Assembly: GCF_003264855.1 (NCBI RefSeq)
Contig: NZ_NFZS01000002.1
Location: 124,001-188,000 of the forward strand
Source of the DNA: Dyella jiangningensis
GTDB lineage: Bacteria > Pseudomonadota > Gammaproteobacteria > Xanthomonadales > Rhodanobacteraceae
DNA length: 64,000 bases
Direction of reading: 5' to 3'
Numbering within the stretch: position 1 is the stretch's first letter; every line of letters begins with the position of its first letter. The notes beneath the pieces are model-generated. The model did no database searches and was not told where the DNA came from. It saw only the letters and a program-made list of their open reading frames with translations. The position numbers and the translations under genes are program-made. Below are positions 1,266 to 23,245 of this stretch, one piece after another.

Positions 1266-1840
1266 AGGTCTCTCCGCCGGTCGGTTGATCCGCGAATGAG
1301 GCATCCCTTCCTTGAACATGGATCGCGTTTCGAACGTCCTATACGACGAATCTCATTGGACGTATATACGCCTTAGCAAATATCGCGGATCAGCTGAACC
1401 CAGCCCGATCAGGAGGCGATCTCTCGTCGCAAGAGGCAACGTAGACGCGATCAAGCAACGCGCATCGTGTGCGTGAAAACATAATGAAGTCGACGTACTT
1501 CCGTGCCACTCAAGGCAATCTCGTTTTCTTCAGGCGACATAGCGCGTGCAACGCAACGCGATCGTGCGGCAATGATTCAGGCAGCACCTCTATTTGTAAT
1601 GCTGCGTTCATGCTTTTTATGGCATCACATGTCGCCCTTCTAAATAACCTGCAAAGCCAGGGTTATGTAAGCGGAAGGCCACGCTTGGAAACGTGCCTGT
1701 GCTCGCTCTCCACGCCAGCCCTCCTTCGACCGTTCAGCCGAGCTGAACCTTAATTGCGAGCTCCCGGTGTGCCGACGTATGGCGGCGCCCATGGCACACC
1801 ATTGCTCGTGGAAGGCCTTCTGAATAAGGAGCCAGTGACC
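1266..1840. promoter_or_regulatory. 575-bp divergent galE / wza intergenic region
   Basis: No convincing gene lies here. The stretch from about 1380 to 1680 is visibly richer in A/T than its surroundings, as expected of a control region. It must hold the galE promoter (leftward) and the wza promoter (rightward). A 10-bp palindrome, CGTATATACG, sits at 1361-1370 about 100 bp before galE. A near-perfect hairpin with arms ATAACC and GGTTAT lies at 1644-1666. A 7-bp perfect inverted repeat lies at 1732-1748 and is listed separately. Specific promoter elements could not be assigned. Confidence 0.6.
1732..1748 (+). repeat. Perfect inverted repeat in the wza leader
   Basis: The arms GTTCAGC (1732-1738) and GCTGAAC (1742-1748) are exact complements separated by CGA. 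The element lies about 92 bp before the wza GTG start. It could be an operator or a small leader hairpin; it is followed by CTTAATT rather than a long U-tract, so termination is only one option. Confidence 0.5.
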
Positions 1841-6086: not shown

Positions 6087-7241
6087 TCAATGGCGAAGCA
6101 GCGCTGCGCCCACGGGTTGGCAAAGCTCTGCATACACTTCCATGGTGCGACGTATGACGATGCCCTCGTCGAACTCTGCGTGCGCCTTGCGACGCGCCGC
6201 CTGTCCGAGCTCGCGTGCGAAGTCCGGCTGGTCCTGCAGGCGCCGGATGGCGGCGGCCAGCGCATCGCTGTCCTTCACCGGCACCAGCAGCCCGTCGACA
6301 CCGTCGCGCACGACCTCGCGGCAGCCCGGCACGTCCGTGGTGATCAGCGGAAGTCCACACGCCGCCGCTTCCACCAAAGTCCGCGGCAGCCCTTCGCGAT
6401 AACTGGGCAGCACGACCACGTGCACGCTCCCGAGCAGCCGGTTCATGTCGTCGACATGACCGAGCCAGGTGATCAGGCCTTCTTTGACCCAGGCTTGTAT
6501 GGTCGACTCCGGCACCGCCGCGGGGTTGCCAGGATCCGGCATGCCGGCAAGCAGCGCATCGATGGGTCGGCCCTGGTCGCGCAACTGGCGCAGCGCATCG
6601 ATGAACTCCTCGATGCCCTTGTCCCATAGCAAGCGACTCGCCAGCAATACGCGCAGGCTGCCGTCGTCCGGCGCGGCGCGCGGCACGTCGGCGAAGCGCG
6701 CGCAATCCACGCCCGATCCGCGGATCAGGCGGATATGTTCCGGATCGACCAGACCGGCACGCGTAAACAGCTCCACGTCGTCCGAGTTCTGCAGGATGAG
6801 ACGCGCCTGCTCGCCGCCCAGCGCCAATCGCATCAGTCCGCGCACCACCGGGCGCAGCAGCCGCGCCTTGAGTTGTTCGCTGGTAAAGACATAGCCCATG
6901 CCGGCGACTGCATTCACGCGTACCGGCACGCCGGCCAGGCGCGCCGCGAGCGATCCATACACCGCGCACTTGATGGTGAAGCCGTGCACCAGCATCGGCC
7001 GCTCGCGGCGTATCAGGCGCACGAGGTACCACAGCAGCGCCACTTCCCGCATGGGATTGAGGCTGCGCCGTTCCATCGGCAACGGTTCCCAGCGCAACCC
7101 GAGGTTGCGGAGCTTCTCGCCGTAGGGCCCCGGCGGCGAGATCAACAGCACGTCGCAACCGGCATGGCTCAGCGCCAGCGCCAGCGATCGCCTGAAGTTA
7201 TAGAGATACCAATCGGTATTGGCGAAAAGTATGACCTTCAT
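6087..7241 (-). CDS. Glycosyltransferase family 4 (WbpT/PglA-like)
   Basis: A GT-B retaining glycosyltransferase expected to add one sugar to the lipid-linked repeat unit on the cytoplasmic face. The 384-residue protein has the N-terminal pattern of the family (LFANTDWYLYNFRRSLA) and the segment HGFTIKCAVYGSLAAR near residue 86, seen in HexNAc transferases of O-antigen and N-glycan clusters. The C-terminal donor domain carries the E-x7-E motif (Glu283 to Glu291, in REGLPRTLVEA). The start at 7241 follows a GAGGTG ribosome site; 16 further in-frame residues upstream are unrelated to the fold. It sits 75 bp after asnB and 27 bp before the beta-helix gene. Donor and acceptor are unknown. Confidence 0.85.
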   Translation of the reverse strand: MKVILFANTDWYLYNFRRSLALALSHAGCDVLLISPPGPYGEKLRNLGLRWEPLPMERRSLNPMREVALLWYLVRLIRRERPMLVHGFTIKCAVYGSLAARLAGVPVRVNAVAGMGYVFTSEQLKARLLRPVVRGLMRLALGGEQARLILQNSDDVELFTRAGLVDPEHIRLIRGSGVDCARFADVPRAAPDDGSLRVLLASRLLWDKGIEEFIDALRQLRDQGRPIDALLAGMPDPGNPAAVPESTIQAWVKEGLITWLGHVDDMNRLLGSVHVVVLPSYREGLPRTLVEAAACGLPLITTDVPGCREVVRDGVDGLLVPVKDSDALAAAIRRLQDQPDFARELGQAARRKAHAEFDEGIVIRRTMEVYAELCQPVGAALLRH

Positions 7242-7316
7242 TCGTGCACCTCGCGCATGCCCTTCGAGGCCCTGCCCTCCCACGGGCAAACACCGGGCGG
7301 TTCTGTAAGGTGGCCG

Positions 7317-9284
7317 TCACGACAAAGTCCCTTCCGTCTCCTGCAACCACGCCTGAAACATCAAGATCGTCCACAGCGATTGCTGCCAGTTGCGACGGCC
7401 GCTCAGGTGTTCTTCCCAGCGCTGTCGAACCGGCCCAGGCTGCAGGTAGCCTTCGCGGCGCAGCCGGCTTTCGCTCAGCAACGCTTCGGCCCATTCGCGC
7501 AGCGGGCCGCGCAACCAGCTGCCCAGGGGAATGCCGAAACCCATCTTCGGACGCTCGATCAATTCCTTCGGCACATAGCGATAGAGCAACTGGCGCACCA
7601 GCCATTTGCCCTGCCCCTGCCGGATCTTCTGGTGCAGTGGAATGCGCCACGCCAGCTCCACCACGCGGTGATCGAGCATCGGCGCGCGCGTCTCCAGGCT
7701 GTTGGCCATTGCCGCGCGGTCGACCTTCACCAGGATGTCGTCAGGCAGGTAGTTCTGCGCATCCATTGCCATCATCCACTGCGCGAGGTCGTCGGCCTTC
7801 GGCCAGGAACGCGTGTCGGTGAATGACGTCTCGGCCTGGTTCGCGCCGATCACGATGGCGGACGGATCGCGCCAATGACTGACCAGGTTGAGGAAGAACG
7901 CACGGCCGTCCGACGCCGTGAGCACTTCGGCGAGCTTGTGCGCCTTGTCGCCGGGGTTGGCCAGCTGCCAGCGCTTGGGCAGCACGGGGCTGGCCAGGTT
8001 GAACATCGCATCCCATCCGCCCGGCGTCAGCGCCTGCAGTGTCGCGGCCATGGTCCGGCGCACCACATGCGGCATGCGCTGCATGCGCTCCCAGGTCGTG
8101 CGCGCCGCGAGATAGCGGTTGTAACCGCCGAACAGCTCGTCGCCGCCGTCGCCACTGAGCGCCACGGTCACTTCGCGCCGGGTCAGCTCGCTGATGAGGA
8201 AGGTCGGTATCTGTGAGCAATCGCCGAAGGGCTCGCAATAGACCGAAGGAAGCTTCGGAATGACGGCCAGCGTGTCCTCCGGTCGCACGTACAGCTCCGT
8301 GTGCTCGGTGCCCAGGTGGCGGGCCACGGCCTTGGCGTGCACGGCCTCGTCGTAATCGCTCTCGTCGAAGCCGATCGTGAACGTCCGCACGCGGGTGCGA
8401 CTGGAAGCCTGCATCAGCGCCGCCACGGTGCTGCTGTCGATGCCGCCGCTCAGGAAGGCGCCAAGCGGCACATCCGATATCAACTGGCCACCGACACTCG
8501 CGCCGAGCTGTTTCTCCAACGCATCGATCGCTTCCTCGTCGCTGCATTCCAGCGGATCACGCAAGCCGGCGCTCACGATGTCGTTGCAGCTCCAGTACGG
8601 CACGGGCTGCGCTTCACCGGGCGCTTCGGCGCAGATGCACACGAAGTGCCCGGGCGGGAGCTTGAACACTTGGCGATAGATCGAATGCGGCGCCGGTATG
8701 CAATCGTAGGCAAGCAGAAGCGCAAGCGCATCGCGGTCCACTTCGGTCCGGAACGACGGATGGGCCTTCAACGCCTTCAATTCCGAGCCGAACAGGAACG
8801 TCGAGTCCATCCAGGCGTAGTAGAGCGGCTTCTCGCCCATGCGATCCCGAGCGAGGGTGAGTGCGCGTTCATGGCGATCCCAGATGGCGAAGGCGAACAT
8901 GCCCACGCAGGCCACCAGGGTTTGTTCGATGCCCCACGCGACGATACACGCCAGCAGGGTCTCGGTATCCGAGTGACCGCGCCAGGAGGGCGCGGCGCCC
9001 TGCCTGGCGAGGCGCTCGCGCAATTCGAGATGGTTGTAGATCTCGCCGTTGAACACGACCACGTAGCGTCCACAGGCGGACGGCATCGGCTGGTGTCCCG
9101 CAGCGGACAGATCGAGGATGGAAAGCCGTCGATGCGCAAGCGCGACGCCGACGTTCTCGTCGCACCACAGGCCGCCATCGTCCGGCCCGCGGTGATTCAG
9201 CTGGCGCGACATCTCGCTCGCCCGTTCGAGCAGCGCCGACCGCTCGCCCGAGCGCAATTGCCAGAACCCCGTTATGCCGCACAT
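7317..9284 (-). CDS. asnB: Glutamine-dependent asparagine synthetase-like amidotransferase
   Basis: Transfers ammonia from glutamine to an ATP-activated carboxylate. The 655-residue protein has Cys2 after the initiator Met as the glutaminase nucleophile (MCGITGF), a class II glutaminase domain to about residue 220, and a synthetase domain with the PP-loop SGGIDSS at 279-285. The start at 9284 is fixed by the required N-terminal cysteine; 120 in-frame codons upstream overlap the preceding gene. Its start overlaps the end of the upstream glycosyltransferase by 13 bases, so it is co-translated with polysaccharide genes. In O-antigen loci such homologues (WbpS type) amidate uronic acids; here the wbpB/D/E genes would supply one. 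A housekeeping asparagine synthetase role is the alternative. Confidence 0.88.
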   Translation of the reverse strand: MCGITGFWQLRSGERSALLERASEMSRQLNHRGPDDGGLWCDENVGVALAHRRLSILDLSAAGHQPMPSACGRYVVVFNGEIYNHLELRERLARQGAAPSWRGHSDTETLLACIVAWGIEQTLVACVGMFAFAIWDRHERALTLARDRMGEKPLYYAWMDSTFLFGSELKALKAHPSFRTEVDRDALALLLAYDCIPAPHSIYRQVFKLPPGHFVCICAEAPGEAQPVPYWSCNDIVSAGLRDPLECSDEEAIDALEKQLGASVGGQLISDVPLGAFLSGGIDSSTVAALMQASSRTRVRTFTIGFDESDYDEAVHAKAVARHLGTEHTELYVRPEDTLAVIPKLPSVYCEPFGDCSQIPTFLISELTRREVTVALSGDGGDELFGGYNRYLAARTTWERMQRMPHVVRRTMAATLQALTPGGWDAMFNLASPVLPKRWQLANPGDKAHKLAEVLTASDGRAFFLNLVSHWRDPSAIVIGANQAETSFTDTRSWPKADDLAQWMMAMDAQNYLPDDILVKVDRAAMANSLETRAPMLDHRVVELAWRIPLHQKIRQGQGKWLVRQLLYRYVPKELIERPKMGFGIPLGSWLRGPLREWAEALLSESRLRREGYLQPGPVRQRWEEHLSGRRNWQQSLWTILMFQAWLQETEGTLS

Positions 9285-10369
9285 CGGTTCTGCCCCACGC
9301 TGTGCAATACCTCCGCGAGCCGCGGCGCCTGCGTGTGCAGGCAATAGGTCTCTTCGACCGCCACGCGTCCGGCCTGCCCCATGCGTAGACGCATGGCACG
9401 ATCCTCGATCAATTGCACCAGGCTGCTCTCCCAGCTCGCGCGGTCCGTCGCGAGGAAACCGCTTTCCCCGTGGCGCACGATGTCGATGTTGGCACCGACG
9501 CGCGACGCCACCACGGGCAGGCCGCACGCCATGTATTGGATGAGTTTGTAACCGCACTTGCCGCGTTCCCACGGGCCATCGCGCAGCGGCATGATGCCGA
9601 TATCCATGCGCGCGATCGCGTCCGCCTCGCTTTCCTCGGTCCATGGCAGGACCTCGGGGTCGAACCCGTGGAAGCGATCGACGACGCTTGCCTTCGCTCC
9701 CACCAGCAGAAGGCGTGCATCGTGCTCGACGCAGACCTTCTCGAGCACATCACGCTGGTCGAGCAGGTAGTTCTCGGTGAGTGGCGATCCGATCCAGCCG
9801 ATGACCGGCCGCCGATCCTCCTGGTGATCCACCGGCCGGTAGCGGCGCTCGTCCACCACCGTGGGGATGACCTCGATGCGCGGAGCGCCCGCCCGCGCCG
9901 CGCGCTCCGCGAGGTAGCTGTTGCCGGCGACCACGCAGGCGGCGTCGCGCATGACGCGATCGATCTTTCGCCCGAGCAGGCCACGGATCAGTCGATTGGA
10001 CGAGAGATCGTATCGATGGAACAGCGCGTCGTCGTAATCGACCACGTACGGCTTGACCGAGCGTGCCAGCAGCGATTCGACCATCGATGGCAGATAGGGA
10101 AAGAGCTCGCCCTCGATCCACGCGACATCGTGCTCGCCGCTGCGCAGTAGCTCCTTGAACCGGTGCACGCCGCGCCGCCATGCATTCGCCATGGCGGACC
10201 GGCCGTTGCCGTGGAAGATGGCGTCGAGGTACTCATCCGAAAAAAGCGGATGGACCTCCACGTCGATACCGTAGCCGCGCAGCAGGGGCAGGTACTGCAG
10301 GCTGCGCAGTCGCGAACTCGCCCCCCTCCTCGAATACTTGGAAAACAACAACACCCGGATACGCCTCAT
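9272..10369 (-). CDS. Glycosyltransferase (GT4-like)
   Basis: The 365-residue predicted GT-B enzyme begins RVLLFSKYSRRGASSRLRS and has the C-terminal donor-domain segments PVIGWIGSP and GKCGYKLIQYMACGLPVVAS, the last being a common GT4 nucleotide-binding region. It presumably adds a sugar to the undecaprenyl-linked unit. The start at 10369 is chosen because its ATG overlaps the stop of the wzy-like gene by four bases (ATGA), a normal coupling arrangement, and because the hydrophobic first strand begins there. It ends 13 bases inside asnB. Specificity cannot be assigned. Confidence 0.82.
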   Translation of the reverse strand: MRRIRVLLFSKYSRRGASSRLRSLQYLPLLRGYGIDVEVHPLFSDEYLDAIFHGNGRSAMANAWRRGVHRFKELLRSGEHDVAWIEGELFPYLPSMVESLLARSVKPYVVDYDDALFHRYDLSSNRLIRGLLGRKIDRVMRDAACVVAGNSYLAERAARAGAPRIEVIPTVVDERRYRPVDHQEDRRPVIGWIGSPLTENYLLDQRDVLEKVCVEHDARLLLVGAKASVVDRFHGFDPEVLPWTEESEADAIARMDIGIMPLRDGPWERGKCGYKLIQYMACGLPVVASRVGANIDIVRHGESGFLATDRASWESSLVQLIEDRAMRLRMGQAGRVAVEETYCLHTQAPRLAEVLHSVGQNRCAA

Positions 10370-11673
10370 CGCCTCACCCTGACCAGCGCCAGCGAATGCT
10401 CGACGTACCACATCACCAACGGGAACACGTACATCCACTGCAGCGAAAACGCCTCGATGTAGGGATTGGTATTCGTGGCGAGAAACGCACAGACGAAACC
10501 GGAGAACAAAAACTTGTGATGCGCCGGCAGGCGGCGGTCGAACGCAAGCTTGGCCACCCCAAGGACGTAGATGAGGAAGGGCAATGCGTAGATGAAGGCA
10601 CCCAGCAGGCCAACGCGGAAAATGCTCGCGATCCAGACCACTTCATATCGCCACGGGTGAATCGGGTCGCTGACGTAGTTCACACCCACGCCCTGCCCCG
10701 AGCCGAGGCCACCGTTGTCGAGGATCGCGGCATACAGCGAGCGGGACATCTCCGTTCGCTCGACGCCACCACCGGCCGCGAGCTTGTTGAAGACGATATT
10801 GAGCACGGCCGAGACGCGCACTTGCGTGTACGCCTCAAGCACGTACAGCGTCACGATGAGCGCCACCAGCGATGGCACGCCGTACTGCATGAAGCGCACG
10901 ATGGCCGGCTTGCCCCGATGTTCGTTGGTGCGCGAGCCCAGCATCCAGCCCATGCATGCGCCCATCGGGATGGACAGGATCAGGGCCGAGCGACCCGAGG
11001 TGATGGCCGCGATCAGCAGCATGGCCAGCAGGGCGAAGCGCAGGGTGCGCCGCTTGATCAGCTCGGGCGAACTGAAGAATCCACCGCACAGGAAGATCAT
11101 CGACCCGTACACATGCATCGTGGCGCCGGCAAAACCCTCGTTGAGGTTGAGGTTGGCGCCCTGGAAGAAGAACTCCACGGCGGCAGCGCCACGCGTCAGG
11201 TACAGGTAGAAGAACAGCGCGACACTGAGCGCGCAGAACAGGCTCAACACGATGAACCAGTCGATGATCCGCTCGACACCGATCGCGCGACGCAAGCCAT
11301 CGGCAATGATGATCCAGAGAAATGGCGTGACGATATAAACCGCCGCCACCTGAAGCAGACCGATGAACGGCGCACCGTGCATGCCGCCCACGACGAGGTA
11401 GATCACCGTCACCATGGCCGAACAGGCGTACAGCGCCAGCAAGTTCTTGAAGCCAAGCGTAAACCGCATGCCCGGCACAGCCAGCAGGAAAGCCAGGCCC
11501 ATCACGGCCGCTGTCGGGACCGGCAGCGAGTTGGGCACCACCACCGTAAGCAACAACAACAGGAAGGCCACGCCGATAAACAGGTGGCGTACCGTCAACC
11601 TCGGCGCGTCTGTCTCGGGAAGTCGTGTTGGCACCGGAGGGACGATCGGTGCTGGATCATTCACGGAGTTCAT
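10366..11673 (-). CDS. wzy: O-antigen/capsule polymerase-like integral membrane protein (Wzy)
   Basis: The 435-residue protein has about ten to twelve hydrophobic segments and a central periplasmic loop (about residues 170-210) as in Wzy polymerases and WaaL-type O-antigen ligases. It carries no recognisable nucleotide-binding motif. Wzy joins lipid-linked repeat units on the periplasmic side of the inner membrane. Position decides the assignment: it lies in a block with Wzx, Wzb, Wzc and glycosyltransferases, and it is the only candidate polymerase there. Both ends overlap neighbours by four bases (start at 11673, stop at 10366). Sequence conservation in this family is low, so the call rests on topology and context; a ligase is the alternative. 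Confidence 0.7.
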   Translation of the reverse strand: MNSVNDPAPIVPPVPTRLPETDAPRLTVRHLFIGVAFLLLLLTVVVPNSLPVPTAAVMGLAFLLAVPGMRFTLGFKNLLALYACSAMVTVIYLVVGGMHGAPFIGLLQVAAVYIVTPFLWIIIADGLRRAIGVERIIDWFIVLSLFCALSVALFFYLYLTRGAAAVEFFFQGANLNLNEGFAGATMHVYGSMIFLCGGFFSSPELIKRRTLRFALLAMLLIAAITSGRSALILSIPMGACMGWMLGSRTNEHRGKPAIVRFMQYGVPSLVALIVTLYVLEAYTQVRVSAVLNIVFNKLAAGGGVERTEMSRSLYAAILDNGGLGSGQGVGVNYVSDPIHPWRYEVVWIASIFRVGLLGAFIYALPFLIYVLGVAKLAFDRRLPAHHKFLFSGFVCAFLATNTNPYIEAFSLQWMYVFPLVMWYVEHSLALVRVRR

Positions 11674-12944
11674 GCCGTCACCATGCGAGATATCCAGTTA
11701 TCGAGCAGGCCCGCCTGGACGACCCTGCTGTAAGCGCTGATGTCGTGCCGCGCGCCATCGCCCGGGCCGAACAAGGCGTCGCGAAGCGTCGCCGCGTTCG
11801 TCTGGCCACCGCCGGTCAGCAGCGTGCGGCCGGCGCCGGTTTCGGCGAGGATGACGGTGGCGGCGTTGCGCACCTGCGTGACGCAGACGACGTCCACGCC
11901 GGTGGCCAGGTAATCGAACAGCTTGCCGGTGGCGCAGCTGACCCGCGAACCGGTGAGCAACAACAGCTTGCTGCAACGTTTCATCAGCTGGAGCGCGACG
12001 GTGCGTTCCACGGGCGGCACCACGCAGACGGGAAACCTCGCGCGTTCGATTGAAGCGCGCTCCGAAGGCGTCAATTCGCCCACGAACATCACCTGCTTGC
12101 CTGTCGTGATGTCGCTGCACTGGTTCAATGTGTCGATGAAATGTTCGAGCGTCACCGACGCCGAACTGTCGCTGGCACCGATGCGCCCGAAGTGGCCGAT
12201 CAGCGTGGCGCCCGGCGGAACGTGCTCGGCCATGATCGCCGTGGCCCGACCGACACCATCGGCGTCACCTGCCAGTCGCTCGAAGTCGGCGGGATCGTAG
12301 CCATTGGGCAGCACCTTGACGGTCTTGTCCGGATATCGGCGCTGGAAGTCTTCCACCAGCGGGCCACTCACCGACGTGACCAGGCCACTGATGTCCACGA
12401 CCCGTCTTTCGATCTGCGTGCGCACGAGGTTGCGTAGCCAGCCGGGCTTGCCCAGCGCTTCGAACACCAGGCCGTCGCGGAAATCCTGCATGCAGCCGAT
12501 GCCGTACCGGCTCGCGAGGCTCGCCGCCGCGATCAGGGAATCGATGGGAGAGTACGTACCGATGGCGACGCAGGACTCGCCCGCCGCCACACGCTCAGCG
12601 CACAGGCGATCCGCCTCGGTCAACGCCTGCATCAACCAGGTCCGCCCAGCGAAGCCGCGCGGCACCAGGAACGGCAGCGGTCGCACGAAGGCGCTCGCCA
12701 TGGTCAGCAGCGAAGCCGGCACAGACGACTCGCTGCCTACGCACTGCCCCGGCAAGGCAATGACCCGCATGCCGGCGTGCTGGGACTCCATCTTCAACGG
12801 CGCCGCGGACGAGGCCTGCCGGGCGAAGATGAAGATCCGGTATTTGGCCGGGTCCAGGTATTTCAGCAGACCCTTGAAGCGTTCGGCGGCAACATTGCTG
12901 GACAAATGATGCGCCGCAAATACAAACAAATTGATTTTTGGCAT
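11670..12944 (-). CDS. Glycosyltransferase (GT4-like)
   Basis: The 424-residue cytoplasmic protein begins MPKINLFVFAAHHLSSN, a first strand plus acceptor-loop pattern of GT-B enzymes. It continues with DFRDGLVF near residue 155 and a donor-half signature VLPNGYDPADF at about 210, where many GT4 proteins bind the nucleotide sugar. The C-terminal half (GSRVSCATGKLFDYLATG) matches the usual GT4 helix near the donor phosphates. It overlaps the wzy-like gene by four bases and lies 129 bp after wzx. Its sugar is unknown. Confidence 0.78.
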   Translation of the reverse strand: MPKINLFVFAAHHLSSNVAAERFKGLLKYLDPAKYRIFIFARQASSAAPLKMESQHAGMRVIALPGQCVGSESSVPASLLTMASAFVRPLPFLVPRGFAGRTWLMQALTEADRLCAERVAAGESCVAIGTYSPIDSLIAAASLASRYGIGCMQDFRDGLVFEALGKPGWLRNLVRTQIERRVVDISGLVTSVSGPLVEDFQRRYPDKTVKVLPNGYDPADFERLAGDADGVGRATAIMAEHVPPGATLIGHFGRIGASDSSASVTLEHFIDTLNQCSDITTGKQVMFVGELTPSERASIERARFPVCVVPPVERTVALQLMKRCSKLLLLTGSRVSCATGKLFDYLATGVDVVCVTQVRNAATVILAETGAGRTLLTGGGQTNAATLRDALFGPGDGARHDISAYSRVVQAGLLDNWISRMVTA

Positions 12945-13073: not shown

Positions 13074-14528
13074 CTAAGGAAGAGCGTCACGTTCTCGTCT
13101 TGTCTCCTCTGTCCAGTTGGGCCGAATGGCGGATCGCAGTGCTCGGTACATGCCGGACCACTCCGAGCGGAAGCTCCAGAACACCACCGGCACCATCGCC
13201 AGCCAGATCAGGCTGACGACCGCCGGCGTTTCCTCATCGAAGGCCAGCGTGACGATGGACAACGCGACCGCGACGATCACCGATATGTAGAGCTTGAGGC
13301 GCGGAATGGGTCGCCACACGTAGGCCGATGCTTCCGTCCTCGCGATGAAGAACACCAGGAACGCGACCGCATTGGCGACCACGGCGCCTGCCGCTCCATG
13401 CTTGGGTACCAGCCATATGCTGCCCAGCACGTTGACCACCAGCGCGACCAGCGTGGACCACAGCGAGAGCATCGATCGACGGGTGATGCCGATGCCCACG
13501 CAGGTCACCTCGGACAGCGTGTAGAGCAACGGCTGACCGATGCTGCACAGCATGAGGTACTTCACCTGCCGGTAGTTCGCGGGCAGGACGAAATCGATCA
13601 ACCATGAGAACGTTCCGCTCAGGACCCAGATGGCGCAGACCACGGCCAGCGCCTGATGAGCCACATGATCCACACGCTTCATGTCTGCACCATGAGCGAC
13701 CCACTTGTAGACCATGGGCGCCCAGAGCACGGTGAAAATCGTCTGAAAAACGATGCCCACGCCCGCAAAGCTCATCGATACCGAATAGAAGGCGAGCTCG
13801 GTCAAGGTGGAGAGCGAACGCAATGTGAGCGTACTGGTGGCATCCAGGCCCCAATAGGCCACGCCGGCGAAAATCAGCGGCACGCCATAGCTCAGCAAGC
13901 CGCGTACCTGGTCGTTGGATAGTGAGGCACCAAACGCCGGTCGCCAGTCGCGACGCGTGTTCCAGCTGAAAGCGAACAGTACGGACAGCAGGGAAACGAG
14001 ATAGGCCAACTCGAGCTGCCAGAACGACCGCGAGAACTGTGGCAGCGCCATCATGCCGACGACCATCAGGAAAGCGATCTTCGGGAGGATCTGGCTCATC
14101 GAAAAGGCCATGCCGCGGTCCTGCATTCGCAAGATCAGTGAAAGGAACCTCGATATGAAACTCACTACGACACAGGCAACCAGCATCCAGTAATAAGCGA
14201 CCTCGTCCAGGCCGAACAACAGCATGGACAGTCGATCGCTGAATGGAATGGTGAACACCATGGCCAACAGCAGCAGCAGGAAACCCGGGGAAAAGCAGGC
14301 TTTCAGCAACGCGCCGCGGTCGTGCCATTCGTGGTATTCGCGAACGTAGGCTCGATCCAGGCCGAGATTGAATAGTAGTACCCCGAACGACACTGCGATC
14401 TGAACAACGTTTAGACGTCCAACATCCGCCGGCGCGAATATCCAGGTAATCGCCGGAACCGTCACCAGACCCAACCCCGCGGTGGCGATCGGGCCAAAAG
14501 CAAATGCCGCTATCGTTCGTAAATTCAC
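13074..14528 (-). CDS. wzx: Oligosaccharide repeat-unit flippase (Wzx, MATE/MOP superfamily)
   Basis: Moves the completed undecaprenyl-diphosphate oligosaccharide across the inner membrane. The 484-residue protein has about 14 hydrophobic helices and little else, the size and layout of Wzx/RfbX proteins. The first helix opens with FGPIATAGLGLVTVPAITW, a typical MOP-superfamily N-terminus. The start is placed at GTG 14528 because GGAAGG lies seven bases upstream; an in-frame TTG at 14549 would add seven residues and lacks a ribosome site. It is 104 bp downstream of one glycosyltransferase gene and 129 bp upstream of another. The short gap after it carries a 6-bp GTCCCG/CGGGAC hairpin (13034-13051). 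Confidence 0.83.
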   Translation of the reverse strand: MNLRTIAAFAFGPIATAGLGLVTVPAITWIFAPADVGRLNVVQIAVSFGVLLFNLGLDRAYVREYHEWHDRGALLKACFSPGFLLLLLAMVFTIPFSDRLSMLLFGLDEVAYYWMLVACVVVSFISRFLSLILRMQDRGMAFSMSQILPKIAFLMVVGMMALPQFSRSFWQLELAYLVSLLSVLFAFSWNTRRDWRPAFGASLSNDQVRGLLSYGVPLIFAGVAYWGLDATSTLTLRSLSTLTELAFYSVSMSFAGVGIVFQTIFTVLWAPMVYKWVAHGADMKRVDHVAHQALAVVCAIWVLSGTFSWLIDFVLPANYRQVKYLMLCSIGQPLLYTLSEVTCVGIGITRRSMLSLWSTLVALVVNVLGSIWLVPKHGAAGAVVANAVAFLVFFIARTEASAYVWRPIPRLKLYISVIVAVALSIVTLAFDEETPAVVSLIWLAMVPVVFWSFRSEWSGMYRALRSAIRPNWTEETRRERDALP

Positions 14529-14632
14529 AAGCCGGCCTTCCAGTTTCAACGAATGTTCGTGCCTGATCTTTCTCGCACATGATGCCCTTGCCTTCTTACA
14601 CGGGCTTGACCAAGCATTCCCTGCAACGCGTC

Positions 14633-15871
14633 TCAGGAAGCACCGATAGACAACACATCGTGGATGAACGACGGATAATTCTTTGCCGCATCGAAGCGAT
14701 CTTCCACGGCTTTTCGCGCATTCACGCGAAGCTCATTTCGCGAATGGTCGAACGCAAGCACGGTAATTGCATCGGCGATCTCCTTGTACGTGGGATTCTT
14801 GCTGAGCAGCACGCCGCACTCGGCAGACACGAGATTGGACACGCCACCCACGTTGGGAGCGATCGCGATCACGCCGGTGCTCATCGCCTCCATGATCGAC
14901 ACCGGGATGGCTTCCGATTCGCTGGTGTTCATGAAGATGTCCACCGGCATGTTCAGGTAGTACTTCTTCACCGCGTCATTGGGCAGCTCGCCCGCGAACG
15001 TGAATTCCATGTTCGCGAGATCGCCCAGCCTTGCCTGTGCCAGCGCCCTCATCTCGTCGAGCAGCGGGCCCGCGCCGATGTGCGTCCAGCGCACGTGGAA
15101 CTCACTGTACTTGCTTGCGAACAGTCGCAGGCCCTCGATGATGCGATCCATCCGTTTCACGGGAAGACAGAACGACACGGAGACGATATGCAGGCTTCCA
15201 TCCGGACTCGGCTGTGACAGGCCGGGGACCAGCGGCACGCCGAGCGGGATGATGGTGATCTTCTCCGGCGGAGCGGCGTAGGTCTGCCGCAGGTAGCCTT
15301 GCGCTTCGGTCGACAACGCGAAGATGCGATCGAACGAGCCGATGAACTGGCGCTTGAGCGGCATGTACTCCAGCATGCGCCGTTCCTGGTACAGATCGAT
15401 GCCGTGCGCACGCGTCACCACCCGGCGGACCGCGCCCTTCTCCCTGGCGAGGATGGCGGCGTATGCCTGCGTGTCGTTCCAGTAGCTGTACGCCACGTCG
15501 ATGACGCCGTTGCGTCGCGCATAGCTGACGAGCGCGCTGGTCTGCTGCATGACCTTGGACACGTGCAGCAGCGCGCGGACCACGGTCCGACGGCACAGCT
15601 TGCCGGACTGCCGCAGGTAGGACAGCTCGTTGCGGAACAGCTTCGAGAACACCGCCCGCGCGATGTAAGGCAGGCGACGCAGCGTGCCTGGCTTGACCAT
15701 GCTCAGGTCCATCGACACGCCGGGAGGCAAAGGCCTGGGCGACCCCTCGGCGACGGCAGGCAGCACCGTGGCGATGGCGTCGGGCTGCCGGGCCCAGTAG
15801 CCGATCTCGTCTTCGAGGAACTGCTCGCCCGGGTGATAGGGAAACGCGTTGGTGAGTATGACTATCCTCAT
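14633..15871 (-). CDS. Glycosyltransferase family 4
   Basis: The 412-residue GT-B enzyme begins MRIVILTNAFPYHPGEQFLEDEI. The donor domain shows IPLGVP near residue 205 and an E-x7-E motif in SEAIPVSIMEAM near 325, followed by GVIAIAPNVGG, a classic GT4 ending. It would transfer one sugar during repeat-unit assembly. The gene starts inside the stop of the HPr-kinase-like gene (four-base ATGA overlap), so translation of the two is coupled, which ties that unusual kinase to glycan assembly. Donor and linkage cannot be inferred. Confidence 0.87.
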   Translation of the reverse strand: MRIVILTNAFPYHPGEQFLEDEIGYWARQPDAIATVLPAVAEGSPRPLPPGVSMDLSMVKPGTLRRLPYIARAVFSKLFRNELSYLRQSGKLCRRTVVRALLHVSKVMQQTSALVSYARRNGVIDVAYSYWNDTQAYAAILAREKGAVRRVVTRAHGIDLYQERRMLEYMPLKRQFIGSFDRIFALSTEAQGYLRQTYAAPPEKITIIPLGVPLVPGLSQPSPDGSLHIVSVSFCLPVKRMDRIIEGLRLFASKYSEFHVRWTHIGAGPLLDEMRALAQARLGDLANMEFTFAGELPNDAVKKYYLNMPVDIFMNTSESEAIPVSIMEAMSTGVIAIAPNVGGVSNLVSAECGVLLSKNPTYKEIADAITVLAFDHSRNELRVNARKAVEDRFDAAKNYPSFIHDVLSIGAS

Positions 15872-16974
15872 GCGTGCTCAGCCGCTCCGGCCATGAGCGT
15901 ATCGATCATGCGGTCTCGATACGCGACATGGTCCATGTTCAAGGGGACGCTGGTCTTGAAACACGCCACCGTCGCGAGGCACTCGGACAGCAGGCGGCGC
16001 CAGTTGGTGACGACCTGGTCCATGGTGAGCATCGCGGTGCGCGAGGTGGCCAGCGCGTTGTACTGCTCCCAATAGAGCTGGTCGTGGAAAATGCTGTACT
16101 CCGCACTGATGACGGCGATCGTCATCTCCGCGGCGACGGAAGCATCGAGGCGAGCAACCTGGAACTCGGCGACGTCTTCCCTCACCAGGTAATACAGCCG
16201 GGATAGATGGACGGGCGCCGATTCGACCTTGCGATAGACCCGATCGGGACGAAGCTTGCGTCGCGTGCTGGCGACGTTGATCCAGGTCTTGACGTTGAAA
16301 TGCGTGCGGTCGACCCATCCGCGCCCAGCGAGCAACTCGCCCTTCAGCGCAGGGTCGGTGCAGTTGTAACCGTAGATCTTCGGCCAGGCCATGTTGGCGT
16401 ACACCAGCGACGAGCCATAGGACATCAACGAGATGTCGTCGCTGACGAAACCCACGCCCTCGTGCTGCCTGAGCGCGAGCATGGCCGCCGACTTGCCCAC
16501 GCCACCGGTGCCTGCCAACAGGCAGGCCTCGCCGTTCACCGTCAGGCAGGCGGCGTGGATGGGCACCATGTCGCTGAAGAAATACGTCGACGGCACCAGC
16601 ACGAATTCGTGCAGGATCTGCTCGAACGACTCCAGGTCGCTGGCGTATTCCACCGAAAGCAGCTTCTGCACGTTGCGCTTGACGCCCCGGCGCGAGCGCA
16701 GCGTGACCTCTACTTCGAGCGTGCCCGTGGCCGACCATCCCCAGTAGACGTCGCTCGCGGGAAACGAGGTCAGCATGCCGTGATCGAACGTGCGGTGCAG
16801 CCGCGGGTTCATGGCCACCAACGCCCGGCCCGATATCTCGGAGACGATGTGGATCTCCACGTGCGGAGCCATGTCGCCCGCATCCGCATACAGCGCCAGG
16901 CTCTCGGCCAGCCATGCCTGATACATGGGATCGCCAGAAAACGCATAGCATTTTCCGAAGATGATCTTCTTCAT
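15868..16974 (-). CDS. HPr-kinase-like P-loop protein in the polysaccharide operon
   Basis: The 368-residue protein carries a C-terminal HprK-like fold. The sequence PIHAACL (138-144) leads into the Walker A loop GTGGVGKS (155-162), and VSDD (177-180) corresponds to the acidic Walker-B-like pair of HPr kinases. The N-terminal 130 residues match nothing I recognise. Related HprK-like kinases of unknown substrate occur in exopolysaccharide and peptide-modification clusters, sometimes beside a PqqD-like partner. No such partner, HPr or other PTS gene is seen here. It follows the WbpE-like aminotransferase by 18 bp and overlaps the next glycosyltransferase by four bases. It may phosphorylate a sugar, lipid carrier or protein; the substrate is not known. 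Confidence 0.75.
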   Translation of the reverse strand: MKKIIFGKCYAFSGDPMYQAWLAESLALYADAGDMAPHVEIHIVSEISGRALVAMNPRLHRTFDHGMLTSFPASDVYWGWSATGTLEVEVTLRSRRGVKRNVQKLLSVEYASDLESFEQILHEFVLVPSTYFFSDMVPIHAACLTVNGEACLLAGTGGVGKSAAMLALRQHEGVGFVSDDISLMSYGSSLVYANMAWPKIYGYNCTDPALKGELLAGRGWVDRTHFNVKTWINVASTRRKLRPDRVYRKVESAPVHLSRLYYLVREDVAEFQVARLDASVAAEMTIAVISAEYSIFHDQLYWEQYNALATSRTAMLTMDQVVTNWRRLLSECLATVACFKTSVPLNMDHVAYRDRMIDTLMAGAAEHA

Positions 16975-16992: not shown

Positions 16993-18087
16993 TCAGGCAA
17001 AGACCCTGGCGGACAGCGCCGCGGCGACTTGCTCCTGCCTTCCCTCATCGAGATAAGGCGACATGGGAAGGCTCATGACCTCATCCGCGGCGCGATCGCA
17101 AATCGGCATGCGCGCGCTTTCGTCCGCCAGTGCCGGCTGCCGGTACAGCGGCAGCGGATAGTGCACCGCCGTGGGCACGCCCGCTTCGTGCAGGCGCTTG
17201 CGCAGCGCCTCGCGATCGCCGACCCGCACGGTGTACTGCGCCCAGGCGCTGACGTTGTGCTTTTCGATCACGGGAAGGCCCAGCTGGTCGATGTCGCCCA
17301 GCAGCCGGTGATAGGTCTGCGCGACCTGCTGGCGCAGTCGCATTTCATCGTCGAACACGTCGAGCTTGGCCAGCAGCACGGCGGCCTGCAGCGTATCGAG
17401 CCGGCTGTTCACGCCCACGCATATGTGGTGGTAGCGCTTGTCCTGCCCGTGGCGCGCGATCAGCCGCAGCGATCTGGCCAGCGCTTCATCGCTGGTGAAG
17501 ATCGCGCCACCGTCGCCATAACAGCCCAAGGGCTTGCTCGGGAAGAAACTGGTGCAGGCGATCGTGCTCAGGTTGCAGCTCCTGCGGCCCTTGTAGGTGG
17601 CGCCAAAGCTCTGCGCGGCGTCCTCGATGACGGGAATGCCATGCTTGCCGGCGATCGCGTTGATGGCGTCGAAATCGGCACACTGGCCGTACAGCGACAC
17701 CACGATGATCGCCTTCGTGCGCGAGGTGATGGCTGCCTCAAGCAGCGCAGGATCCAGGTTGTACGTGGACGGGTCGATGTCGACATACACCGGCTTGGCG
17801 CCCAGTACGGCGATCGCCTCTGCCGTCGAGATATGGCTGAAGCCGGGTGAGATCACTTCGTCGCCCACGCCGATATCGAACGCCATCAGCGCGATCTGCA
17901 GCGCATCGGTGCCATTGGCCACCGAGATGCAGTGACTGGCGCCCGTGTAGGTGGCCAGCCGGGCTTCCAGCTCCGCCACTTCGGGCCCGAGAATGTACTG
18001 GCCGTGCTCCAGCACGCGTGCGATACCTGCATCGATGCTGGACTTGATGCGCACCTGTTGTGACTTGAGGTCGATGAAATCGATCAT
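16993..18087 (-). CDS. wbpE: DegT/DnrJ/EryC1/StrS aminotransferase, WbpE-like
   Basis: A PLP-dependent sugar aminotransferase. The 364-residue protein has the family markers SVANGTDAL (55-63), EDAAQSFGA at 155-163 whose Asp156 contacts the PLP nitrogen, and the internal-aldimine Lys185 in [14 protein letters not shown]. Flanked by WbpD- and WbpB-like genes, it most likely makes UDP-3-amino-GlcNAcA from the 3-keto sugar. The start at 18087 gives the canonical [10 protein letters not shown] opening and a four-base overlap with the acetyltransferase stop; 22 in-frame residues upstream are discarded. The reaction assignment rests on the three-gene set; the fold is certain. Confidence 0.88.
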
Positions 18088-18671
18088 GTGACGGGCTCCA
18101 ACTGGCGTAGCGCCTTGCCTTTCAACGCGTAGCGCGTACCGGTGTGCGCGCATACGGCCTCACCCTCGCCTTCCAGTGGAAGGTCGAGGCGTTCGCCGAA
18201 TTCACTCATCCAGCCGATCTGCCTGGCCGGCACGCCTACCATCAGCGCATAGGCCGGCACGTCCTCGGTGATGACGGCACCGGCGCCGATGAAGGCGAAC
18301 TCACCGATGGTGACGCCGCAGACGATGGTGCAGTTGGCGCCCAGCGTGGCGCCGCGGCGCACCGTCGTGTCGCGGTATTCGCTCTTTCGCTCCACCAGGG
18401 CGCGCGGGTTGTAGACATTGGTGAACACCATGCTGGGGCCGCAGAAGACGCCCTCTTCCAGCGTCACGTTGTCGTAGACCGACACGTTGTTCTGCACCTT
18501 GCAATGGTCGCCGATGACCACCTTGTTGCCGACGAACACGTTCTGCCCGAGCGACACGCCCATGCCGATGCGCGCACCGCCGCAGACGTGGGTGAAATGC
18601 CAAACACGCGAGCCTTCGCCGATCACGGCGCCCTCGTCGACGATGGCGGAAGGATGTTGGTAATGGTCCAT
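18084..18671 (-). CDS. wbpD: UDP-amino-sugar N-acetyltransferase, left-handed beta-helix (WbpD-like)
   Basis: The 195-residue protein is built of hexapeptide repeats (for example VIGEGS, RIGMGV, VIGDHC, TLGANC), the left-handed beta-helix of acyl-CoA-dependent acyltransferases, and ends in a short hydrophilic C-terminal extension. The segment FTNVYNPRA is characteristic of the WbpD/WlbB group that acetylates the 3-amino group of UDP-GlcNAc3NA. It follows the dehydrogenase gene by seven bases; AGGA inside the dehydrogenase end is the only ribosome site seen, at a long spacing of 15. It overlaps wbpE by four bases. Together the three genes form the diacetamido-uronic acid branch. Confidence 0.87.
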
Positions 18672-18678
18672 GCGATGC

Positions 18679-19847
<1,169 letters not shown>

Positions 19848-22049
19848 TCATGACACCGCCTTTTCGACCGAGTAGTAGGCATACGCGTAGTAACCGCGAC
19901 TGCGTTTCTCGACCGCATTGAAGATGGCGCCCTTGATGGACACGCCGTTCTGCTCGAAGCGTTGCTTGGCCAGGGCCAGCTCGCGCGACTGGCTGAGGCC
20001 GAAGCGCGCGACCATCAGGCCGGTTCCGGAGTGATGGCCGATCACGGCCGCATCGGTGGCCGCAAGGATGGGCGGCGTATCGATGATGATCAGGTCGTAC
20101 TTCGGCTTCAGGTGATCCAGCAGCGCCGAGAATCGCGCGTTCATCAACAGCTCCGATGGATTCGGCGGAATCTTTCCTCGGGTGATGTAATGCAGCGTGC
20201 TCGGCGACTCGGCCTGGCGTATCGCGCCGGCCATGTCCACCTGGCCGGAGATCAGCTCGGACAAGCCGATCTCCGCCCTTCCGCCGAGGATCTTGTGCAC
20301 CACGCCGATGCGCATGTCGCCATCGATCAGCAACACGCGCTGGCCAGTCTGCGCGACCACGGCGGCGAGGTTTGCGGAGACGAAGGTCTTGCCGGCGTTC
20401 GGGCTCGCGCCCGAGATCATCAGCACGTTGTTCTTCGCTTCGAGGCGGGCGAAGTGCAGGCTCGTGCGCAGGCTGCGCAGCGCCTCCGCCGCGAGATCCT
20501 TGGGCGAATCCTCGACCAGCACGTGCTCCCGGCCATCCGGTCGTGCGCGCTTGCCCTGCAGCGCACGCTCCCGCGGGCTGACTGGAATGGTCGCGTACAC
20601 CGGCAGGCCGATCTTCTCGATGACGGCCGGGTCCTCGATGCCACGATTGAGCATCTGGCGGATGAAGACGTAGAGCAGCGCGACGAAGCCGCCCAGCAAG
20701 GCACTGCCGAGCAGGATCAGCGTCGTCCGCGGCCACACCGGCTGGGTCACGTCGACCGCCGCGCGATCGATGATGCGCACGTTGCCGATGGTGCCGGCGC
20801 GCGCGATGTCCAGCTGCTGCGCCTGGTTCAACAGGCTGGTGTAGGTATCGTTGCTTACCTGCACGTCGCGGGTGAGCTTCAGCAGCTGCTGCTGCGTATC
20901 CGGCAGGCCCCCGACCTTCTTCTCGATCGCGCTCTTCTGCGCCTCGAGCTGACCGATCTGCTTCATCAACGCCTGGTACTGCGGATGCGCCGGGGTGAAT
21001 TGACGCTGCATGTCAGCCTGCTGCAAGCGAAGCTGTTCCAGGTTCGTCTCTATCGAGACGGTCTGGTTCAGCAGCGTCTGCGTCTGCATGTTGATGTCGA
21101 CGGACTGGGACTTGTTCTGGAATTCATTCAGCGCCGCGGTGGCGCGCTCCAGTTCGCGTCGCACGTTCGGGATCTGGTCGCGCACGAACTTGAGGCTGTT
21201 GGCCGCCTCGGCGGAATTGCGCTCCACGTTCTGGCGCACATACAGCTCGGCGACCTGTTCCAGCACGTTGGTGGCCATGACCGGGCTGGCGTTGTTGTAC
21301 GTCATCCCGAGAATGCCGGACTCCTTGCCTTGCTCCGTCACGTTGATCTGCCGCTGCAGCGCGTTGATCACCGTCAGCTCGCGACGCTTGAACACGCGGA
21401 AGCGCGTACCCGGGTTGGCCGCCAGCGATTTCACTTCGATGGTCACGCCATGCGCTTTCGCCTCCTGGCCCACGCGACCGATGACGAGGATGTTTCCGTC
21501 GTCGTCCTGCAACACGTAGAGACCGCCTTCGCCGGCGATGAAGCGCAACGGCTTGTCGAGCAGATCATCGGGCACTTCCAGGCGGAAGATGTCCAGCTTC
21601 GAGCCGCCCCAGTCGTAATCGCTCATGCCCAGCAGCGGCGCGGCGACCTGGCCGGGATGGTTCTTCGCGAAACGATGGGCGTAGAACGAGCCGATCACGG
21701 GGAAGCGCCGGGGCGAGGTTTCCACCGTGAGGTTGAGCTTGTCCACCGCGGAGCCGATCACCATGCGCGAGGTGATCAGGTTGGTTTCGGTGGTGGCCTC
21801 GGGGCTCGCACCCGCCAGCGTCTGGCTGAGCGCGCTCAACTGCGGCAAGTTCTGCACCTGCGCCTCAACCTGCACCATGGCGGTCGCCTGGTAGACCGGC
21901 GTCGCCACCAGCGAATAGGCGATCGCCAGCAGGATGAAGAAGCAGGTGATGCCGAGGATCTTCCACTTGTGATCCTTGACGGTACCGACCACTTCACTCA
22001 GGTCGATTTCGCCATCAGGCTGCATGGAGGGGTACTGGATAATAGTCAT
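19848..22049 (-). CDS. wzc: Capsule chain-length regulator and bacterial tyrosine autokinase (Wzc)
   Basis: Inner-membrane co-polymerase that, with Wza, forms the export channel, and whose phosphorylation cycle with Wzb governs polymer length. The 733-residue protein has a first membrane helix at about 32-52, a periplasmic Wzz domain with coiled-coil stretches at 290-420, and a second helix at about 443-463. The cytoplasmic BY-kinase has Walker A GASPNAGKT (547-555), Walker A-prime LLIDGDM (573-579) and Walker B IIIDTPP (654-660). The tail carries a tyrosine cluster (Tyr720, 721, 723, 725, 726). The start at 22049 is chosen over an upstream in-frame ATG that would overlap wzb. It lies 37 bp after wzb. 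Confidence 0.95.
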   Translation of the reverse strand: MTIIQYPSMQPDGEIDLSEVVGTVKDHKWKILGITCFFILLAIAYSLVATPVYQATAMVQVEAQVQNLPQLSALSQTLAGASPEATTETNLITSRMVIGSAVDKLNLTVETSPRRFPVIGSFYAHRFAKNHPGQVAAPLLGMSDYDWGGSKLDIFRLEVPDDLLDKPLRFIAGEGGLYVLQDDDGNILVIGRVGQEAKAHGVTIEVKSLAANPGTRFRVFKRRELTVINALQRQINVTEQGKESGILGMTYNNASPVMATNVLEQVAELYVRQNVERNSAEAANSLKFVRDQIPNVRRELERATAALNEFQNKSQSVDINMQTQTLLNQTVSIETNLEQLRLQQADMQRQFTPAHPQYQALMKQIGQLEAQKSAIEKKVGGLPDTQQQLLKLTRDVQVSNDTYTSLLNQAQQLDIARAGTIGNVRIIDRAAVDVTQPVWPRTTLILLGSALLGGFVALLYVFIRQMLNRGIEDPAVIEKIGLPVYATIPVSPRERALQGKRARPDGREHVLVEDSPKDLAAEALRSLRTSLHFARLEAKNNVLMISGASPNAGKTFVSANLAAVVAQTGQRVLLIDGDMRIGVVHKILGGRAEIGLSELISGQVDMAGAIRQAESPSTLHYITRGKIPPNPSELLMNARFSALLDHLKPKYDLIIIDTPPILAATDAAVIGHHSGTGLMVARFGLSQSRELALAKQRFEQNGVSIKGAIFNAVEKRSRGYYAYAYYSVEKAVS

Positions 22050-22086
22050 GGCGATGGTCTTCCCATGGCATGAGGCAGGCGCGGAT

Positions 22087-22521
22087 TCATAGGTAGCCCA
22101 CCCAACTGTCGACGGCACGCCGGATCATTTCGTAGGCGCGCACGGATACCGTGTGATGCTGTCGGTACGGATCGGGTATGTCCCGTCCGTCCACCCATTT
22201 ATCGATCAAGAAAACCTTGCCTCGTGCCGCGGGAGCGAGCTCGACCATGGCATCGACATGGCTCTTTTCCATGCCGAGCACGAGGTCGGCCTGGAGGAGC
22301 ATCGGTGGCGTGAGCTGATGGGCACGATGCGGCGAACCGTCTATGCCGCTTTCGCTGAGCAGACGCATGACGGTCGCGTCCATGGGGTCGCCGACGACTG
22401 CGCTCAGCCCAGCACTGTGCAACTGAATGCCGCGTCCGTTCACGCGCTGCCGAAACAAGTATTCGGCTGCCGGACTGCGACAGATATTGCCCATGCAGAC
22501 GATCAATATCCGCTTAAACAC
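22087..22521 (-). CDS. wzb: Low-molecular-weight protein tyrosine phosphatase (Wzb)
   Basis: A cytoplasmic phosphatase that removes phosphate from the Wzc tyrosine tail. The 144-residue protein, the usual Wzb length, begins with the P-loop CMGNICRS (Cys9 nucleophile, Arg15), and the general-acid Asp lies in IPDPYR near residue 116. The start is GTG 22521, directly before the first beta strand (FKRILIVCMGN). An in-frame ATG at 22563 would add 14 residues with no family counterpart but cannot be excluded, since the ribosome site before the GTG is weak. It is the first gene of the leftward block, and a 724-bp gene-free stretch lies upstream. Confidence 0.92.
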   Translation of the reverse strand: MFKRILIVCMGNICRSPAAEYLFRQRVNGRGIQLHSAGLSAVVGDPMDATVMRLLSESGIDGSPHRAHQLTPPMLLQADLVLGMEKSHVDAMVELAPAARGKVFLIDKWVDGRDIPDPYRQHHTVSVRAYEMIRRAVDSWVGYL

Positions 22522-23245
22522 GTATTGGCATACTCCCGGATTCAGGCCCACCGGCGTCAACATCGACGCCAGACGTTCATCAGCCCCCTGTCCGATCCGG
22601 AAGACACACCGAAGTGCGCTTCCGATTTCAGCTGCCAAAAACCAAGTAACACGGCCGTGATGAATGCACGCCTACGAAGCGCCAATACCCTGGTTCGACA
22701 ACGCGCTCTCCCTCGCTTCGCGGATCGCCGGTCAACCGTGGCTCTTGCTGTCGACGTACTTGCAGTCACGGCTGCAAGACACTCAGTACTCAGCAATCAT
22801 GGCACGCTGTTATTACTTCACAGTGAACCGTAGCGAAATGATTTGGGCGGCTGAATGCATCTTCACAGCCCTTCACGAAACCTCCATGCGAGATATCGCC
22901 GAGCACGCTCGGACACGCCCTATCATTCGCAAGAGCATGCGCTGTATATCCCGGTAAATAGGTGTCTCCACGACGCGTGGAAGCAGCGAAACATGAACGA
23001 GCGCGATGGCGCGCATCCTCGCTGCGGAAGCAGTCATCCTGGGGCTCGATGCTTGTTCTAGCCTCTCCCAGCTGGTGTTCGCTTCGTCCCGCTAAGTATT
23101 TCGCCAGCCAAGGCGCATACCCTTCGCACCGCGCGCGGTCGTTCCAGCACCCGCGACACCGACCCGCGCAGTGCTCTCTGCGAGAAGAGGCGAGACTTCC
23201 TTCAAGGTTCGCCGCGAGCACGCCGACCCACTGCGGAGCGTATGG
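22522..23245. promoter_or_regulatory. 724-bp gene-free region between wzb and the phosphoesterase
   Basis: Small open frames exist but none shows codon pattern, ribosome site or family resemblance. The stretch 22790-22960 is A/T-richer than its flanks. A perfect 7-bp inverted repeat (CTTGCAG at 22759-22765, CTGCAAG at 22772-22778) lies about 240 bp before wzb. The region must contain the promoter of the long leftward capsule operon and that of the rightward phosphoesterase gene. I found no JUMPstart/ops element (GGCGGTAG) on the leftward strand. Confidence 0.55.

Follow-up and report, generated by a model that had tools for sequence, protein, structure and literature searches.

HprKL, a divergent PEPCK/HprK-fold protein and putative accessory kinase paired with a glycosyltransferase in Wzx/Wzy exopolysaccharide operons

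HprK and PEPCK have been grouped as a single kinase family (PMC1079889). An HprK-like core has also been described outside the PTS, in the lasso-peptide kinases PadeK, ThcoK and PsmK (PMC9266682), and in Xanthomonas the canonical HprK influences EPS via HPr (PMC6916182). For phosphorylation of a glycan, a functional precedent is WbdD of E. coli O9a, a kinase-methyltransferase that phosphorylates a polyprenol-linked glycan (PMC3482155); WbdD is of another kinase type, belongs to an ABC-transporter pathway and terminates chains. Here we describe HprKL, encoded within a Wzx/Wzy exopolysaccharide operon of the soil bacterium Dyella jiangningensis. The window is the whole 64,000-nucleotide stretch that was analysed (contig NZ_NFZS01000002.1, positions 124,001 to 188,000). 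Counterparts recorded for Dyella jiangningensis and D. amyloliquefaciens are 94% and 91% identical to HprKL.

With HprK (TIGR00679, PF07475; PDB 3tqf, 1jb1, 1ko7), HprKL has in common the C-terminal core fold, an upstream His, the P-loop and the DD pair. However, it has neither a match to the HprK N-terminal domain (Pfam, E 0.01) nor an HPr partner, it scores far under the HprK cut-offs, and the genome carries a separate true HprK. With ATP-dependent PEPCK (PDB 1yvy, 1j3b) it shares the fold of the whole chain, including residues 1-134, and the His and P-loop correspond, whereas it has no Pfam PEPCK match, shows ~10% identity, is 368 aa long against ~520-540 and lies in an EPS context. Like HprK_rel A/B (TIGR04352/TIGR04355) and PadeK, ThcoK and PsmK, it has an HprK-like core outside the PTS, but it falls under the family cut-off, is without PqqD and lies in a Wzx/Wzy operon. 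Wzc, a tyrosine kinase encoded in this same operon, is likewise a Wzx/Wzy kinase but of another fold and family. Among titles and abstracts, mostly from outside subscription journals, that were searched for links between HPr kinases and exopolysaccharides, capsules, Wzy or GtrA, none describes an HprKL-type gene.

The HprKL gene starts at an ATG preceded by GGGAGGATC; by coordinates, this start lies 18 nt past the end of the aminotransferase ORF. Its TGA overlaps the ATG of GT_A in a 4-nt ATGA (15868-15871, minus strand), so the translational coupling to a glycosyltransferase that had been claimed earlier is plausible, the partner being a GT4 gene; in genera other than Dyella, the overlap is replaced by a spacing of 8-20 nt. 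The minus-strand order is Wzb, Wzc, Gfo/Idh dehydrogenase, hexapeptide acetyltransferase, DegT aminotransferase, HprKL, GT_A and Wzx, followed by GT_B, Wzy, GT_C, the AsnB-type amidotransferase, GT_D and the beta-helix protein; the opposite strand carries the Wza-type and WecA-type genes (Table 1). Initiating transferase, glycosyltransferases, flippase, polymerase, Wzc, Wzb and Wza thus occur together, and the placement of HprKL beside a glycosyltransferase in a polysaccharide-assembly operon proved both real and conserved. The names Wzx, Wzy, Wza and Wzb come from ORF sequence, position and synteny, not from family matches; the WecA- and Wzc-type proteins were called by NCBIfam and the glycosyltransferases by Pfam.

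Table 1. Features of the operon and of HprKL, in window positions
Feature	Position	Strand	Basis
HprKL, PEPCK/HprK-superfamily kinase (predicted), 368 aa	15868..16974	-	NCBIfam, Pfam, predicted structure
HprKL residues 1-134, PEPCK-like lobe part in full-length alignment	16573..16974	-	predicted structure
His140, invariant, 15 residues ahead of P-loop; pairs with PEPCK H232 (hhalign)	16555..16557	-	
Walker A GTGGVGKS, residues 155-162	16489..16512	-	sequence, alignment
Asp179-Asp180 of VSDD (residues 177-180), invariant	16435..16440	-	alignment
Lys199 in WPKIYGYN motif	16378..16380	-	alignment
Arg238-Arg239, invariant	16258..16263	-	alignment
GT_A, GT4 glycosyltransferase, constant HprKL neighbour	14633..15871	-	Pfam, synteny
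Wzx-type flippase	13074..14549	-	sequence and position; without NCBIfam match
DegT/WlbC-type aminotransferase	16993..18087	-	Pfam, NCBIfam
Hexapeptide N-acetyltransferase (WlbB-like)	18084..18671	-	Pfam, NCBIfam
Gfo/Idh/MocA dehydrogenase (WlbA-like)	18679..19677	-	Pfam, NCBIfam
Wzc polysaccharide co-polymerase / tyrosine autokinase	19848..22118	-	NCBIfam
Wzb-type low-molecular-weight phosphatase	22087..22638	-	sequence and position
GT_B glycosyltransferase	11670..12944	-	Pfam
Wzy-type polymerase	10366..11673	-	sequence and position; without family match
GT_C glycosyltransferase	9272..10438	-	Pfam
AsnB-type amidotransferase, near TIGR03108	7317..9284	-	NCBIfam
GT_D glycosyltransferase	6087..7289	-	Pfam
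Right-handed beta-helix protein	4623..6059	-	Pfam
WecA-type initiating phosphotransferase	3353..4588	+	NCBIfam
Wza-type export protein	1754..2947	+	sequence

The Gfo/Idh, acetyltransferase and aminotransferase genes resemble the WlbA/B/C (WbpB/D/E) set, which we take to be a route to 2,3-diacetamido uronic acids. Three UDP-sugar dehydrogenase-type genes lie in the host genome outside the window, and a dehydrogenase-like gene was read by eye near the Opitutaceae locus. The AsnB-type gene is kept in homologous operons that reach that far, and its product could amidate such a uronic acid. Together, the Wlb-like set, the UDP-sugar dehydrogenases and the AsnB-type protein suggest that GT_A may handle this sugar. 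The AsnB-type protein itself comes close to the XrtA/PEP-CTERM amidotransferase model (TIGR03108), with 564 of 817 bits, here in a plain Wzx/Wzy operon.

The earlier note had likened the protein to HprK from its GTGGVGKS and VSDD motifs. Family models agree above chance, all of them under their cut-offs: Pfam Hpr_kinase_C (E=2e-4, 21.4 bits; cut-off 33.3), NCBIfam HprK_rel_A (TIGR04352; 1.9e-6, 27.2 bits; cut-off 200) and hpr-ser (TIGR00679; 1.1e-5, 24.9 bits; cut-off 240). A search of the host's own genome with PF07475 picks HprKL at E=2.3e-4, and its closest relative among PDB sequences is HprK. All of these sequence-model matches are confined to approximately residues 133-193. HprK_rel_B (TIGR04355) gives 19.4 bits against a cut-off of 200. 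No Pfam family besides Hpr_kinase_C matched at E 0.01, and the PEPCK families are thus absent at that threshold. Support over the whole domain comes from the AlphaFold model (20 sequences, pLDDT 89.3, pTM 0.89), which aligns along its whole length with ATP-PEPCK 1yvy (Z 14.9, 291 residues, 4.6 A). The C-terminal half of the model also aligns with HprK 3tqf (Z 13.0, 134 residues, 2.7 A). Foldseek with this model retrieved PEPCK at E 6e-8 and HprK at 6e-5, and the sole match in a viral structure library was a giant-virus PEPCK. The HprK fold, whose absence from a predicted structure would have refuted the earlier note's proposal, is therefore present in the model. By hhalign against E. coli Pck (25.9%), the His and P-loop were placed, and the alignment breaks at the DD. 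Judged by its modelled fold, HprKL, divergent and intact, almost certainly belongs to the PEPCK/HprK superfamily; by curated cut-offs, at the sequence level, it is a distinct and rare branch that is not HprK, HprK_rel_A/B or PEPCK.

The N-terminal 130 residues, previously called unfamiliar, indeed have no Pfam match, but they align to PEPCK in the full-length model and are thus not entirely unfamiliar. Because the whole chain aligns to ATP-PEPCK, the N terminus need not be an unknown domain, and in the model it looks like part of a PEPCK-type lobe. When residues 1-134 were modelled and searched by themselves, nothing matched significantly (the HprK core came best, at Z 7.0), and their identity as a PEPCK lobe therefore depends on the full-length alignment. 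We set aside a novel N-terminal fold, as the isolated residues do not support a new fold, or indeed a PEPCK lobe.

We aligned eleven HprKL homologs, with identity down to 19-20%, and found G7, H140, A141, G158, G160, K161, L166, D179, D180, Y201, Y203, R218, R238, R239, E292 and P344 to be invariant. Lys199 is invariant in the close HprKL subfamily, and distant members have a shifted Gln or Lys. This residue may be the equivalent of the ATP-binding Lys of PEPCK, and the invariant Arg238/Arg239 may include the gamma-phosphate arginine; because the hhalign alignment to PEPCK breaks at the DD, we infer these equivalences. The dN/dS of HprKL against three Dyella relatives is 0.044-0.074, similar to that of the operon neighbours. 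This conservation and purifying selection fit the pattern of an active enzyme under selection, and we predict that HprKL is very likely catalytically active. The exception is a Myxococcota homolog (L082 8353-9306), a probable pseudokinase, which lacks the P-loop, the His and the second Asp and adjoins a flippase-type gene; this degenerate homolog points to a non-catalytic role in at least one case.

The sole HPr found in the host genome (C1:1062831) adjoins the canonical HprK (C1:1064441), and PqqD has no match anywhere in the genome, in keeping with the earlier statement that no HPr or PqqD-like partner lies nearby. Thus, neither the PTS nor the usual HprK_rel context applies, and we rejected both HPr as the partner of HprKL and a PqqD/lasso setting. 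A role in anti-phage defence was also rejected, as PADLOC gives no match for HprKL or GT_A. The same genome, without a PqqD match, holds a second HprK-like gene (L023 6102-7238, C1 near 1599674, 378 aa), which reaches 37.7 bits with HprK_rel_B, under the cut-off, and lies in an island with radical-SAM-like, GT4-like and ABC-exporter-like genes (read by eye).

The HprKL family is rare: it is present in 10 of the 147 genomes of the window's family, and a phylum sample of 398 genomes yielded one further full-length match besides the window's own. Scanning genomes turned up 19 loci, which belong to Dyella, Rhodanobacter, Alloalcanivorax, Opitutaceae and Myxococcales and to a contig that is probably mis-binned. 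That contig (L040), filed as Verrucomicrobiota bacterium JB024, is nearly identical to the Alloalcanivorax locus L039, and we therefore left it out as an independent case. GT_A adjoins HprKL, upstream or downstream, in 19/19 loci of the scan, and further searches added a Verrucomicrobiota locus with Gfo/Idh, acetyltransferase, HprKL and GT_A. All close relatives found carry the same GT4 beside HprKL, mostly together with a flippase, across Gammaproteobacteria, Verrucomicrobiota and Myxococcota. A flippase-type gene adjoins the HprKL-GT_A pair in Rhodanobacteraceae operons and in loci read by eye, and flippase-type genes border either HprKL or the pair in loci from Gammaproteobacteria, Opitutaceae and Myxococcota. 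In distant Myxococcota members the upstream gene is flippase-type, a call made by Pfam for L066 and L082 and by likeness for the rest, and some have a GT4 on the opposite side. One open frame (L086 7114-8643, on a 737-kb contig) encodes a GtrA flippase-type domain (PF04138, 75 bits) followed by an HprK-like domain, a remote relative that matches the HprKL profile over ~78 columns (hhalign 97.4%, E 1.4e-11). No plasmid-borne homologs of HprKL or of the GtrA fusion were found. Elsewhere, an HprK-like gene lies near two short ORFs that share an RRKLLKA..Y.PPVILG stretch (L084 6255-9625), possibly another peptide-modification cluster.

Orthologs of GT_A occur in 14 genomes of the family, including all 10 with HprKL. 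In the other four (G017, G080, G115 and G135), the operon order is intact and HprKL alone is missing, with 64-148 nt between the aminotransferase and GT_A matches. These genomes group as one clade (support 1.0) whose sister is an HprKL-positive genome, and the simplest reading is that the clade lost HprKL once, cleanly; the remaining pathway can evidently do without HprKL. In this clade, GT_A differs from that of the window no more than it does in HprKL-positive genera (55-60%), so no functional dependence between GT_A and HprKL is visible there. Several Rhodanobacter loci carry one more gene, for a hexapeptide acyltransferase, between those for the aminotransferase and HprKL: at L034 8699-9190 and at the equivalent place in L016, L021, L022, L028, L035 and L036. 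A slot in which genes are gained and lost while the chain-building enzymes stay looks like the behaviour of repeat-unit tailoring genes.

We are in very little doubt that HprKL functions in this polysaccharide pathway. Its pairing with a glycosyltransferase and flippase across phyla and its clean loss in one lineage suggest that it probably phosphate-tags or tunes the building block. In the mechanism that we propose, HprKL would have been recruited to the pathway as an accessory, a phosphotransferase that depends on ATP (or GTP) and Mg and acts at the cytoplasmic face after GT_A and ahead of the flippase. The gamma-phosphate would most likely go to the lipid-linked repeat unit or to the sugar that GT_A contributes, in either case at a hydroxyl, to give a polymer with optional phosphate. 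The whole-chain ATP-PEPCK match and HprK core match, the invariant active site and low dN/dS argue for this proposal, as do the GT_A pairing, flippase proximity, GtrA fusion, clean loss, acyltransferase slot and the HPr with its own HprK. Kinase activity, a saccharide acceptor and pre-flippase timing are its inferred parts. A saccharide acceptor is about an even call. HprK and the lasso-peptide kinases target protein or peptide hydroxyls, which weighs against the proposal, as do the degenerate L082 homolog, the remoteness of the GtrA fusion and the GT_A of the HprKL-minus clade, which is not unusually diverged. Overall, we put just short of an even chance on an accessory kinase that acts before the flippase, with the lipid-linked repeat unit as its most likely, putative substrate.

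Since HprK and the lasso kinases act on proteins and peptides, the main rival is a Ser/Thr protein kinase that phosphorylates GT_A, the flippase or some other product of the operon, in the way that HprK acts on HPr, and thereby adjusts how much polymer is made. The HprK effect on EPS via HPr in Xanthomonas (PMC6916182), the constant GT_A and frequent flippase neighbours, the GtrA fusion and the dispensability of HprKL in one clade would all fit such a regulator; however, the whole-chain PEPCK-like architecture suggests a small-substrate cleft, GT_A shows no excess divergence where HprKL was lost, and the operon is already served by a phosphorylation pair, Wzc/Wzb. We regard this regulator as unlikely, though a serious contender. 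That same architecture would also suit a small-molecule kinase in repeat-unit supply whose target is a soluble precursor, a free sugar or nucleotide-sugar, and the Gfo/Idh, acetyltransferase and aminotransferase genes adjoin HprKL in Dyella, Rhodanobacter, Alloalcanivorax, Opitutaceae and one Verrucomicrobiota genome. Yet Myxococcota loci have flippase and glycosyltransferase neighbours in place of those sugar genes, which persist without HprKL in the deletion clade, making this supply role distinctly improbable.

The L082 homolog beside its flippase would be expected if HprKL were a non-catalytic nucleotide-sensing or scaffold protein of a glycosyltransferase/flippase complex. We give this little credence, as the P-loop, His and DD are invariant in the other aligned members and purifying selection is strong. 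Least credible of all is a stranded RiPP-type kinase (HprK_rel or lasso-peptide kinase) acting on a peptide: HprK_rel_A is the top NCBIfam likeness, and the operon's AsnB-type protein scores with lasso cyclase models too, but the 27 bits stand against a cut-off of 200, PqqD is unmatched in the genome, and the AsnB-type protein does far better with asparagine-synthase/EPS amidotransferase models and persists without HprKL.

Returning to the lipid-linked repeat unit as acceptor, we tentatively propose, at somewhat less than an even chance, a separate PEPCK-fold kinase family that phosphorylates an undecaprenyl-linked saccharide at the Wzx/Wzy flippase step, an optional decoration whose gain or loss leaves the other operon genes unaffected; the GtrA-fused relative would then combine flippase and kinase in a single protein. 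The HprKL-minus clade offers a ready natural comparison, one operon type with and without the kinase. Phosphate alters the charge and recognition of bacterial surface glycans, and to our knowledge it is added to them by enzyme types unrelated to the PEPCK/HprK fold. The other settings in which that fold is known are gluconeogenesis, catabolite control and lasso peptides; should it phosphorylate a glycan here, or regulate a Wzx/Wzy pathway, it would be put to a new use.
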